Below, piece after piece: positions 9,905 through 13,077 of a stretch of DNA of 64,000 nt. The stretch lies in contig CP013099.1 of NCBI GenBank assembly GCA_001447805.1, positions 1-64,000 of the forward strand. Direction: 5' to 3'. How positions within the stretch are numbered: position 1 is the stretch's first letter; every line of letters begins with the position of its first letter. The position numbers and the translations under genes were made by a program. The notes beneath the pieces are model-generated. The model did no database searches, was not told the origin of the DNA, and was given only the letters and a program-made list of their open reading frames with translations. This stretch comes from Candidatus Tenderia electrophaga (GTDB taxonomy: Bacteria; Pseudomonadota; Gammaproteobacteria; Tenderiales; Tenderiaceae).

Positions 9905-9911
9905 ACATAAC
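9905..9911 (-). other. Residual attC core site upstream of cassette A
   Basis: GTTATGT on the minus strand, 29 bases before the cassette A start codon. The rest of the upstream attC has been lost: the adjoining bases are the end of an IS1182-type element (GAGTTTTTCTACAGACTC). Confidence 0.6.
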
Positions 9912-10052
9912 GAGTCTGTAGAAAAACTCAAACACAAGTCTCTCCACCATCACTCGCCTCAGTTAATTTTTTACTACTCCCTATTTGACCCAATCCTCAC
10001 CGAGAAATAATACAGATCAATTCTTCCCGATACTTGAGACCTATTCCATTCG

Positions 10053-10241
10053 TTATGCCCCATTCCACGCATATCGGTGTATTTTGAATATGTTGTGGAT
10101 CATGCTAATCAATTGCCACTGGCCGTTGACCTTGTGCTTTCCTCTCAGGCTAAATCGCTTGAATCCTATGCTGCTCGTGATGTTCCCGAATACGGGCTCA
10201 ACAGTACCTAGCCGATGGCTATAGATATGCCTTCCCGTGGC
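10053..10241 (-). pseudogene. IS1182-type DDE transposase, C-terminal fragment
   Basis: 62 codons and a TAA on the minus strand: SHRLGTVEPVFGNI, RFSLRGKHKVNGQWQLISMI, HNIFKIHRYAWNGA. The EPVFGNI / LRG-x-KV-x-GQW series is the C-terminal signature of IS1182-group DDE transposases (E of the triad included). No start codon and no N-terminal part remain; the frame is cut at about 10241 where the RAYT repeat array begins. Downstream on the minus strand, the terminal-repeat-like GAGTTTTTCTACAGACTC (9912-9930) marks the IS end. Confidence 0.85.
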
Positions 10242-10244
10242 GCT

Positions 10245-10411
10245 ATAATAAAAGGGGTCAAAGCCCTTTACGAATAAAAGGGGTCAACGAATAAAAGAAC
10301 GAATAAAAGGGGTAATAAAAGGGGTCAAAGCCCTTTAAAAAGTATCTGTCACTTGCTATCCCGAATAAAAGGGGTCAAAGCCCTTTAAAAAGTATCTGTC
10401 ACTTGCTATCC
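10245..10411 (+). repeat. RAYT-associated repeat array, left side
   Basis: Six units beginning AATAAAAGGGG or a degenerate form (10245, 10273, 10290, 10302, 10314, 10364). Full units contain the hairpin AAAGGG-GTCAAAG-CCCTTT. The last two are an exact 48-base direct repeat with 50-base period (10314-10361 and 10364-10411), including AGTATCTGTCACTTGC. The array ends 31 bases before the transposase start and is inverted relative to the array on the other side of the gene. Confidence 0.9.
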
Positions 10412-10442
10412 TGCACATACTAAAATGGATAGGGTAGTTGCA

Positions 10443-11144
10443 ATGCCAAGAAAACCCCGTTTCTTCCTCCCAGGAGTTCCGGTTCATATCGTTCAGCGTG
10501 GCCATAGTCGTGAGCCTGTTTTCTTTGAAGATAACGACTATCTAGCATACCTACGCTGGTTGAAAGAAGGGGCGTCACGGTACAACATAGATATACATGC
10601 CTATGTGCTGATGACAAACCATATACATATCCTGGCCACGCCACATGATAAGGATGGTATTACAAGAATGATGCAGTATATAGGTAGGTTCTATGTTTCA
10701 TATATTAACCATACTTACGGCACAAGTGGTTCTATCTGGGAGGGGCGCTACAAATCCAGTCTTATTCATGACGAAGAGTACCTGCTTACATGCATGCGCT
10801 ATATAGAACTGAATCCAGTCAGGGCTAATATGGTGCGGTCACCTGGGCACTATCGTTGGTCTAGTTATCGATCTAATGGCCAGGGCAGGGAAGATGAGCT
10901 GCTAACACCCCATACAATGTATGTATCGTTAGGTAAAACTAATGCTGCTCGTACGGAATCATATAAGTCGCTATTTAAAGCCCACCTTGATAAAAATATG
11001 TTGGATGATATTCGAGCGGCCTGGCAGACGGGAACTCCGTTGGGGAATGATTATTTCCGCGAGCAGATCGAGGCCAAGCTGAAGCTCAAAGTAGGCCAGG
11101 CCCGAAGAGGTAGGCCATCTAAGCCAAAGGATAATGATGAGTGA
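10443..11144 (+). CDS. REP-associated tyrosine transposase (RAYT, Y1 family)
   Basis: 233 residues from the ATG at 10443 (AGGG 10 bases upstream; an ATG at 10425 is less likely). Single-strand DNA transposase of the IS200/IS605-like Y1 superfamily. Family features: MPRKPRFFLPGVPVHIVQRG, the HUH motif in LMTNHIHILATP, catalytic Tyr candidate in MMQYIGRFYVSYIN, then GSIWEGRYKSSLI and MRYIELNPVRANMV. It appears intact. Both flanks carry inverted arrays of GGGGTCAAAGCCCTT hairpins, the presumed substrates. Basic C-terminus (GQARRGRPSKPK). The last codons and stop overlap a 34-base sequence that is repeated at 11262-11295. Confidence 0.95.
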   Translation: MPRKPRFFLPGVPVHIVQRGHSREPVFFEDNDYLAYLRWLKEGASRYNIDIHAYVLMTNHIHILATPHDKDGITRMMQYIGRFYVSYINHTYGTSGSIWEGRYKSSLIHDEEYLLTCMRYIELNPVRANMVRSPGHYRWSSYRSNGQGREDELLTPHTMYVSLGKTNAARTESYKSLFKAHLDKNMLDDIRAAWQTGTPLGNDYFREQIEAKLKLKVGQARRGRPSKPKDNDE

Positions 11145-11341
11145 TATGTGGCAATATGCATTATAAGGGCGTTGACCCCTTTAGATTTTTTTATAAGGGC
11201 TTTGACCCCTTTAGATGTGACCCCTTTAGATGACCAAGGGCTTTGACCCCTTTAGATGACCATGAGTGATATGTGGCAATATGCATTATAAGGGCTTTGA
11301 CCTCTTTAGATGGCCCCTTTAGATTTGACCCCTTTAGATAC
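11137..11341 (-). repeat. RAYT-associated repeat array, right side
   Basis: Seven minus-strand units of ATCTAAAGGGGTCAAAGCCC or truncated versions (about 11161-11186, 11191-11216, 11217-11231, 11235-11257, 11286-11311, 11312-11325, 11326-11340). The 34 bases at 11137-11170, including the transposase stop, recur exactly at 11262-11295, so the array grew by duplication of the gene's 3' end. Confidence 0.9.
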
Positions 11342-11674
11342 GAATATTGAGCGTCAGCTCCTGGCCGGAAACAGACGTATAGGAGACGGCGCCCAAATGG
11401 AAGTGAAGTAGGCAAAAAGCAATGCATACCTCGCCCCGGCAGTTACGACGCGCTACCGGTTGGATCGAATGACGAATCCCGACAGACGACGCCTGTACCG
11501 CTCGACCACGGCACCCCACCACGTCGCCTCCGGCACCATGGCTCGGCCCCAGACGGGATGAGGGAGATCTCTTAACAACCTGTTCGTTATATTATCAAAC
11601 CGGCCCTGAAAGCGGCCACAATAGCGCAAGTAATAGACATAATTTATACATATCTTTATGATATTATGTAATTT
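11342..11674. other. Non-coding gap upstream of the Fic gene
   Basis: About 330 bases without a credible gene. The last 60 bases are very AT-rich and contain an imperfect inverted repeat (CATAATTTATACATA and TATTATGTAATTTATG, about 11637-11678) which may be an operator overlapping the Fic promoter. Nothing else identified. Confidence 0.45.
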
Positions 11675-12919
11675 ATGATTAGTTATGATGCGGACAAAGA
11701 AGCGGCCATGAAACCGGACAATAGCACACCCCTGGACAGGGGTGAGCCCGTATCTTTGATGGAACCTATGAGGATCTCCGAAGGTTCTCGCGATAGGGGA
11801 GAGCTCGCCGATCTTGCGGTCGAGTTGGCGGCGCATTCCGCAGGATTTCGCCGGAGCCTCCCGGAAGGCATCCTGACATCCCTGGCGGAGCTGGTCCGGG
11901 CAATGAACTGTTATTACAGCAACCTAATCGAAGGCCACGATACCCACCCGGTCGACATCGAACGCGCCCTGAAAAACGATTACAGCACCAACGCGGAAAA
12001 ACGGAACCTGCAACTCGAAGCCAAAGCACACATCGCGGTTCAGCAATGGATCGACGGCGGCGGAGTGCGCGGGCGCAGCGTAAGCGCGGACGGTATTTGC
12101 GAGATCCACGGTCGGTTTGGTGAACTCTTGCCGGATGAACTGCTGTGGGTTAAAAATCCTGATAATGGCGAACGGATGCGGGTCATTCCCGGTGCGCTTC
12201 GCGGACGTGATGTCAAAGTCGGTGAACACATCCCGATCAGTCCCGGCGCGCTTCCGCGTTTTCTCAAGCAATTTGAACAGACTTACAGCGGCCTGGGAAA
12301 AGCGGAGACGATTATAGCGGCTGCGGCAGCACACCACCGGCTATTATGGATACACCCATTCCTGGACGGCAATGGACGCGTAGCCAGACTGATGTCATAT
12401 GCGATGCTTCTAGACGCCCTGGATACCGGCGGCATTTGGTCTATTGCCCGTGGTCTTGCCAGGAACGTGCGGTCATACAAGAACCATTTGGCCCAATGTG
12501 ATCTTCCGCGCCACAATGATCTCGATGGGCGCGGCAATCTCAGTGAGCAAGGCTTGGTCTCGTTCACGCATTTCTTCCTTGAAATCTGCCTCGACCAGGT
12601 CAAGTTTATGGAAGAGTTAGTCCAGCCCGACCGGCTTAGGGGGCGTATTCTGCTCTGGGTCGAAGAAGAAATCCGCGCCGACGCGCTGCCGCAAAAGGCC
12701 GGGCGCATCCTGGAAGCAATTCTTTACCGAGGAGAACTACGGCGTGGGGACGTTCCGGAACTGATTGGGGCGAGCGACCGCCACTCCCGCCGCGTCGTTG
12801 CCGCCCTAATCGAACGCGGTGTTCTCGTCTCGGAAAGCACGCGCGCACCGCTGCGCCTCGCCTTCCCGGCCAAGCTGGCATCACGGTGGATGCCAGGACT
12901 ATTTCCGGAGCAACGCTAG
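11675..12919 (+). CDS. Fic family protein (AMP transferase-like)
   Basis: 414 residues if started at 11675 (ATG at 11708, residue 12, is an alternative; neither has a strong ribosome-binding site). The Fic core motif HPFLDGNGRVARL (H of HxFx(D/E)GN(G/K)R) is intact, so AMP or another NMP can be transferred to target hydroxyls. An N-terminal inhibitory helix is visible as YYSNLIEG (S/T-x-x-x-E-G), the class II arrangement with autoinhibition in cis. C-terminal winged-helix-like part (GRILEAILYRGELRRGDVPE, then GASDRHSRRVVAALIERGVL) probably binds DNA. Such stand-alone Fic-wHTH proteins are common on islands; no antitoxin gene is adjacent. Lies between RAYT repeats and tRNA-Phe. Confidence 0.92.
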   Translation: MISYDADKEAAMKPDNSTPLDRGEPVSLMEPMRISEGSRDRGELADLAVELAAHSAGFRRSLPEGILTSLAELVRAMNCYYSNLIEGHDTHPVDIERALKNDYSTNAEKRNLQLEAKAHIAVQQWIDGGGVRGRSVSADGICEIHGRFGELLPDELLWVKNPDNGERMRVIPGALRGRDVKVGEHIPISPGALPRFLKQFEQTYSGLGKAETIIAAAAAHHRLLWIHPFLDGNGRVARLMSYAMLLDALDTGGIWSIARGLARNVRSYKNHLAQCDLPRHNDLDGRGNLSEQGLVSFTHFFLEICLDQVKFMEELVQPDRLRGRILLWVEEEIRADALPQKAGRILEAILYRGELRRGDVPELIGASDRHSRRVVAALIERGVLVSESTRAPLRLAFPAKLASRWMPGLFPEQR

Positions 12920-13077
12920 CCTGTGGCGCAGAGACATTGGTCTCTCCTGTTAAGCAGAAAACCGGGTTAGCTCAGGCTTTTTCGTTTTGCCAATTCCAAT
13001 GAGAACCTGATATTGGTCGGTAATCTCAGACGGAGGAGAACAATAGGGGACAGAATAATTGAGTCTGGTTCTGATCG
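12920..13077. other. Short gap after the Fic gene
   Basis: No gene seen. It contains GGGGACAGAAT at about 13046-13056, a string often found in dispersed RAYT-type repeats and coincidentally similar to the 3' part of the nearby tRNA-Phe. Confidence 0.35.

Follow-up and report, generated by a model that had tools for sequence, protein, structure and literature searches.

Inverted arrays of terminal units around a transposase gene of Candidatus Tenderia electrophaga, a probable TIRtron

TIRtrons and their TIRYT transposases were published by Di Nocera et al. 2013 (PMC3733652). Passages of that paper describe a RAYT-like Y1 gene between inverted repeats (TIRs) that are unrelated to the GTAG REPs, carry the motif GGGGWSAS and occur as singles, dimers or clusters in some genomes; unit boundaries, inner stops and the boundary of the mobile unit are not given in these text passages. 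According to passages of Quentin et al. 2018 (PMC6006769), the TIRYTs probably correspond to subclass 2.1 of TnpA_Y1, long proteins with a C-terminal extension past the HUH core. In the passages concerned, one TIRYT paper reports shared inverted-repeat motifs (PMC3733652); the other, having seen no REP-like sequence beside the majority of these genes, asks for further analysis (PMC6006769).

The TnpA_REP enzyme of REPtrons is, in the passages of PMC8266576 that treat it, a Y1 enzyme acting on single-strand hairpin units and cutting both sides of the hairpin, with a GTAG tag and a CT/CA cleavage rule. The IS200/IS605 elements (IS608, ISDra2) are compact, with an HUH/Y1 fold and subterminal hairpins as found here. 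With IS91 and Helitrons, one-ended transposition yields copies that keep one end and stop at varying inner points, as in the present arrays, the difference being that their enzymes are of the two-tyrosine Rep type.

The locus described here lies in a stretch of 64,000 nucleotides of Candidatus Tenderia electrophaga DNA, below called the window. Judged by its sequence, the element agrees with the TIRtron/TIRYT description except for the last position of GGGGWSAS, where the window units, GGGGTCAA, are one base off the motif; GGGGTCAG of most relatives fits, and G is found at position 7 in 78% of 153 ends (position 0 being the first G of GGGGTC). The explanation that appears rather probable is that the locus is a TIRtron whose Y1 transposase recognises the terminal units, the arrays being the result of local, abortive end processing by the transposase.

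Gene, arrays and surroundings in the host genome

The transposase gene is an intact open reading frame of 239 codons with its probable true start at the ATG at 10443 (MPRKPRF...), where the alignments of homologues begin. PF01797 (Y1_Tnp) is the sole Pfam domain of the protein (2e-12), and the NF047646 model of REP-associated tyrosine transposases gives 74.3 bits, which is under the cut-off of 80. H66 and H68 of the HUH motif (H66-I-H68) and Y126-x3-N130 are invariant columns in an alignment of 32 rows, and the HUH and YxxxN motifs are both present in 75 of 75 open homologues. The best PDB match of the predicted model (pLDDT 83, pTM 0.82) is 4er8, TnpA_REP on a REP hairpin (E 6e-8), with IS608 second. 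The RAYT identity given in the original prediction thus holds for a RAYT-like Y1 transposase, by domain, by the NF047646 score below cut-off and by fold, but not for a usual REP/RAYT system, which is replaced by TIRtron/TIRYT. The protein likely belongs to TnpA_Y1 subclass 2.1. The extension of that subclass is HTH-like (Bac_DnaA_C, HTH_23, HTH_28); the window protein has C-terminal helices in the model (173-182, 190-202 and 209-219), but no match to the Pfam HTH models was found in the 32 family members searched.

Table 1. Features of the locus, in window coordinates, and of related genes and copies on contig C1 of the host genome
Feature	Position	Strand	Description
IS end fragment, 336-bp	9909..10244	+	broken off exactly at left array
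Left-end array	10247..10424	+	six units starting AATAAAAG (at 10247, 10273, 10290, 10302, 10314, 10364); inner truncation points differ between units
Left units	10247-10272, 10273-10289, 10290-10301, 10302-10313, 10314-10363, 10364 on	+	
Innermost left full end	10366..10386	+	WAAGGGGTCAAAGCCCTTT core, 6-bp AAAGGG/CCCTTT stem; from sequence and consensus of 153 distinct ends
TIRYT (Y1/HUH tyrosine transposase) gene	10425..11144	+	ORF, 239 codons, intact
Right-end array	11130..11339	-	seven units, inward start ATCTAAAG; inverted relative to left array
Right units	11325-11339, 11312-11324, 11258-11311, 11232-11257, 11217-11231, 11187-11216, 11130-11186	-	
Fic-gene segment (PF02661)	11340..13029	+	from 11353 on 98.6-99.1% identical to contig C2
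Y1 gene	C1:1394891		inverted ends around GGRTCAGAGTCATT
Y1 gene	C1:1404714		28-bp perfect inverted repeat CGGGTCAGAGAGC...; right-side partial array, AGGAGAAAACCGGGTC twice
Y1 gene	C1:1499351		left end alone retained
Own-genome copies of 1503-bp IS	C1:1396588-1398104, 1399384-1400900, 3482353-3483869, 3487668-3489184		L261, L264, L266-L268, L271, L272

Six left and seven right units in inverted orientation had been proposed around the intact gene, and this anatomy is confirmed by the AATAAAAG starts of the left units and by CTTTAGAT, in which all seven right units end (last bases 11186 to 11339). Neither 8-mer is found beyond the arrays on either strand of the 64 kb window. The common core of the units, AAAGGGGTCAAAGCCCTT, can fold with a 6-bp stem as AAAGGG-loop-CCCTTT. 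GGGGTCAAAGCCCTT is exact in three left and two right units only; in two further right units it has a single mismatch, and all other units are truncated. With at most three mismatches, 10 matches were observed in the window against 1.92 expected, and none of 100 shuffles reached 10. A search of Rfam gave nothing above chance.

The 48-base duplication reported for the left array is exact (10314-10361 = 10364-10411). One right-array unit carries an exact 34-base copy (11137-11170 = 11262-11295), which had been described as a copy of the 3' end of the gene; because the gene ends at 11144, just 8 of the 34 copied bases are genic, and the remainder is trailer and repeat unit. The copy is a right-end unit reaching inward to the last codons of the gene. 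Array growth in place was upheld.

In the host genome (3.76 Mb, two contigs, nearly closed) genome-wide mapping, a check that had been proposed, places the exact 15-mer of the repeat at this locus only, with five exact and two one-mismatch copies; one one-mismatch copy lies at another host position. Neither a second copy of the window element nor solo or dispersed exact copies of the repeat were found in the host genome. Three further Y1 genes are present (Table 1), and by inspection their flanks carry ends of this class in which the inner sequences are different. The recent, continuing activity suggested by the original prediction is unsupported, as the element is single in the genome and the units carry substitutions between one another. 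These same two features would suit a dead or dying element with arrays as old residue, a description of the state of the locus that is compatible with a TIRtron and abortive end processing; it is possible but somewhat doubtful, since the gene is open with all catalytic residues and the 48-base duplication has stayed exact.

The parent of the IS fragment at the left array is about 1.74 kb long and has five near-identical full copies elsewhere in the genome. On the right, the copy of the Fic segment on contig C2 is without the TIRtron element. The stretch shared with C2 may start at ACGAAT (window 11340, right after the array), on the basis of six bases before an indel. An empty site was not found in the host genome, where the left flank in the IS fragment and the right flank shared with C2 are never joined elsewhere. 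Orthologous right flanks were found in relatives; a clean empty site was not, the flanks never being cleanly joined. A target-site duplication at the window was considered and rejected, the left prefix (AATA) and the right prefix (ATCT) being different. The duplicate of the Fic segment (window 11353-13029) spans the ends of C2, which suggests that this contig is a circular replicon.

A second IS, of 1503 bp with ends CTTAAGTAAGTGCCATTC, sits inside TIRtron-type ends, in four copies in the host genome (Table 1), and is also found beside ends at L045, L124, L126, L179, L039, L095 and L231. Its 461-aa transposase presumably resembles IS4-type enzymes. The 11-bp target duplications match in two of the four own-genome copies (GACTCTGACCC, GTATCTGACCC) and equal the GGGTCAG core, while the flanks of the other two copies are mismatched to each other, as after exchange between copies. 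This IS looks like one with TIRYT ends as its target, much as REPs are targeted by some IS.

Homologues, mobility and the boundary of the mobile unit

The scan for homologues used one genome per species, and 80 of 375 loci were kept, most of them from metagenome-assembled genomes, where repeats can be misassembled. Of the 80 loci, 61 have an inward GGGGTC within 400 nt upstream and 46 have one within 400 nt downstream; 43 have it on both sides and 64 on at least one. Seven of the loci have less than 150 nt of flank on one side. GGGGTC was in the wrong orientation in 7 of 80 homologues and no inward GGGGTC was present within 400 nt in 16; in a control region 1.5-1.9 kb out, the counts were 6 upstream and 3 downstream. 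Of 37 genomes reached via 39 of these loci, 34 contain exact AGGGGTCRRAGCCCTT, with copy numbers ranging from 1 to 22; the reversed control pattern was absent. Confinement to this locus together with absence from homologous loci had been named as the outcome that would speak against the prediction; the repeats are confined in the host, but they are present at homologous loci elsewhere, and the association of repeat and gene is therefore real. Hairpin-capable units flank most homologues, whereas passages of PMC6006769 report no REP-like sequences near subclass 2.1 genes. Solitary units as inverted pairs, another of the proposed checks, are lacking in the host genome but were found in relatives: 15 gene-less short inverted pairs in seven genomes among 40 fetched stretches, with core starts 57-119 nt apart.

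One P. aeruginosa plasmid record (L227, NZ_CP116719.1) has three TIRtrons with GGGGACAG ends and three annotated transposase genes, lying among annotated toxin-domain and nuclease genes; in one of the three, part of the left end is repeated in tandem. None of 5,426 E. coli genomes contains a match to the P. aeruginosa relative, and phage records gave one weak match.

Both ends were recognisable in 48 of 91 elements (the 80 homologues, the window and 10 kin loci); 47 of these are 755-862 bp long and one is 1027 bp. Within single genomes, two copies are 94.8% identical over 774 bp in G006 (L027 and L037) and two are 94.7% identical over 773 bp in G007 (L028 and L033), with unrelated flanks in both cases, and the same element is found at 93-96% in other genomes (L034, L074). 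Homology restricted to the element at unrelated sites, together with the gene-less inverted pairs in relatives, implies that the unit moves, and these comparisons indicate that gene and ends move as a whole unit.

Partial copies can be anchored at an outer end, with fragments as long as a 467-bp right end in L098. At L151 (G038:C215:1977-5678) tandem 364-bp units, comprising the left end and the start of the transposase gene, stand ahead of an intact copy. That every partial copy is end-anchored proved too strong, as internal flank matches without an end anchor were found in L030, L062, L074, L076, L077 and L094; these are mostly old copies, 66-80% identical. In a deleted copy in G006 the left breakpoint lies directly after GGGGTCAG, and the inner stop thus serves as a deletion joint too.

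Where ends at unrelated sites were compared, 7-10 prefix bases were common to 8 of 10 pairs with an inner identity of at least 97%; these ten pairs are not independent: two types of miniature-element end in G022 account for most of them, and in three (L033, L060, L151) the ends compared belong to one locus. At 93-97% inner identity mostly 6 prefix bases were common, and at 85-93% mostly 3-4. By inspection, the own-genome pair L161/L164 (97%) has 8 in common, and among older copies, those at 95% identity or less, the prefix is not the same from site to site. The older copies had led to a first reading of the prefix as target DNA, which was dropped on the shared prefixes of the copies at 97% or above. 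From a few fresh sets, mostly G022 and L161/L164, we read the mobile unit as ending at about -7 to -10; its prefix would decay fast because nothing conserves it. We also read its outer boundary as the point where the array units begin.

Array geometry and its explanation

Among 153 distinct full ends, a conserved consensus extends from -4 to +16 and is lost further out. Array units begin 7-9 nt outside GGGGTC with a prefix that is private to each site. The prefix common to adjacent array units peaks at 7 nt (22 of 72 pairs), and 53 of the 72 pairs have 6-9 nt in common. Units drawn at random from different loci typically have 2-4 bases in common, with at least 6 in about 2.4% of pairs. The 7-nt prefix of a unit is recopied within 150 nt outward in 98 of 275 distinct units, compared with 4 matches for equal inner stretches; the unit counts are not fully independent.

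The inner stops are discrete and fall after WAAG, after GGGGTC(AG) or after the hairpin. Counting one copy per array side (n=60), 33 were at 0-2, 1 at 3-4, 21 at 5-8, 1 at 9-15, 3 at 16-19 and 1 beyond; the full set includes longer units, 36-86 nt past the first G. The window arrays obey the same start and stop rule as those of relatives. No array rule for TIRtrons was found in the literature, as covered by titles and abstracts and by passages of the TIRYT papers, and the letters of the repeat matched only unrelated papers among the matches listed.

In the main rival account, which needs no transposase, forks would stall at the terminal hairpins and slippage or template switching would let short tandem duplications build up there. 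It agrees with units that are short, tandem and close to the hairpin and with the stops at +16-19, which match the far foot of the stem. It is nevertheless unlikely. Array units start outside the stem, and the distance is fixed even where the sequence varies by site; discrete stops at 0-2 and at 5-8, separated by a gap, would not be predicted. In 38 abutting duplications k+m was barely above the period, with little and never long microhomology, and like partial units occur where the inner part cannot form this stem (GGGGTCAGCTTCGCAT ends in L073 and L077; CGGGTCAGAGAGC ends in own-genome L155).

A classical REPtron, that is, a domesticated RAYT serving REPs spread through the genome, is highly improbable: the protein is RAYT-like, has its best fold match in TnpA_REP with a REP hairpin and is encoded beside hairpin units, but a GTAG-type tag is missing 5' of the hairpin, as the original prediction had noted in proposing another recognition rule, no consensus exists upstream of -5 in the 153 ends, the host has no many-copy dispersed unit, and in relatives the gene moves with its ends, while REPtrons are said in passages of PMC6006769 not to transpose as a unit. 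Instead of the tag and CT/CA rule that passages of PMC8266576 describe for TnpA_REP, the ends here show, as read from sequence, a prefix private to each site and a constant distance from GGGGTC. The locus differs from IS200/IS605 in that its ends are inverted copies of each other. In 110 ends, neither guide pairing nor stem extension between the prefix and the bases 3' of the hairpin was detected in excess of shuffled pairings.

Under the TIRtron explanation with abortive end processing, an autonomous element of about 0.8-1.1 kb would encode a Y1 (HUH) transposase recognising inward terminal units [W]WAAGGGGTCAGAGCCCTTW (here ...TCAAAG...) that are able to fold as hairpins. At about 7-9 nt 5' of GGGGTC, a point 3-5 nt beyond the conserved tip, the enzyme would cut one strand, and the 5' end from this outer cut would be held on its tyrosine. 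In a productive event the same cut would be made at both ends and free the whole element or a gene-less inverted pair. In an abortive event one end alone would be processed, as a stretch running inward from the outer cut to a stop just past WAAG, GGGGTC(AG) or the hairpin, or to one lying deeper; this stretch would be copied from the freed 3' end, or exchanged from the sister strand, and rejoined to the outer cut as a tandem unit, and repeated abortive events would give the arrays. A reaction at one end is plausible because TnpA_REP cuts both sides of its hairpin, as passages of PMC8266576 describe. Anatomy, cross-species association, element-only homology, fixed outer start, discrete stops and the same boundary in fresh copies are direct observations; we infer from sequence that the joints are the work of the transposase, and likewise the strand that is cut and the source of the duplicate, by copying or sister exchange.

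A further step, put forward tentatively and with a little less than an even chance, is that each TIRtron end is a micro-element with a fixed outer cut and two or three fixed inner sites. Ends would be duplicated, trimmed and joined on the spot, the arrays would be a footprint of Y1 cleavage chemistry, and the same joints would give rise to internal deletions and gene-less pairs.

The TIRYTs are a class without a known DNA rule, according to passages of PMC3733652 and PMC6006769, and the outer start with discrete inner stops is the part that was not found described in the literature, as far as the passages and abstracts extend. The arrays appear to mark where the enzyme cuts DNA and so offer a test of how such elements move, with the concrete prediction that cuts would fall 7-9 nt outside GGGGTC and at inner points that follow WAAG, GGGGTC or the hairpin. 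They may also serve as a model for the origin of short palindromic repeat families from a mobile gene. If each end is indeed a micro-element, the arrays would be a readable cleavage footprint for a Y1 class for which no biochemistry was found in the literature searched, and the joints of internal deletions and gene-less pairs would be a route to such element families.
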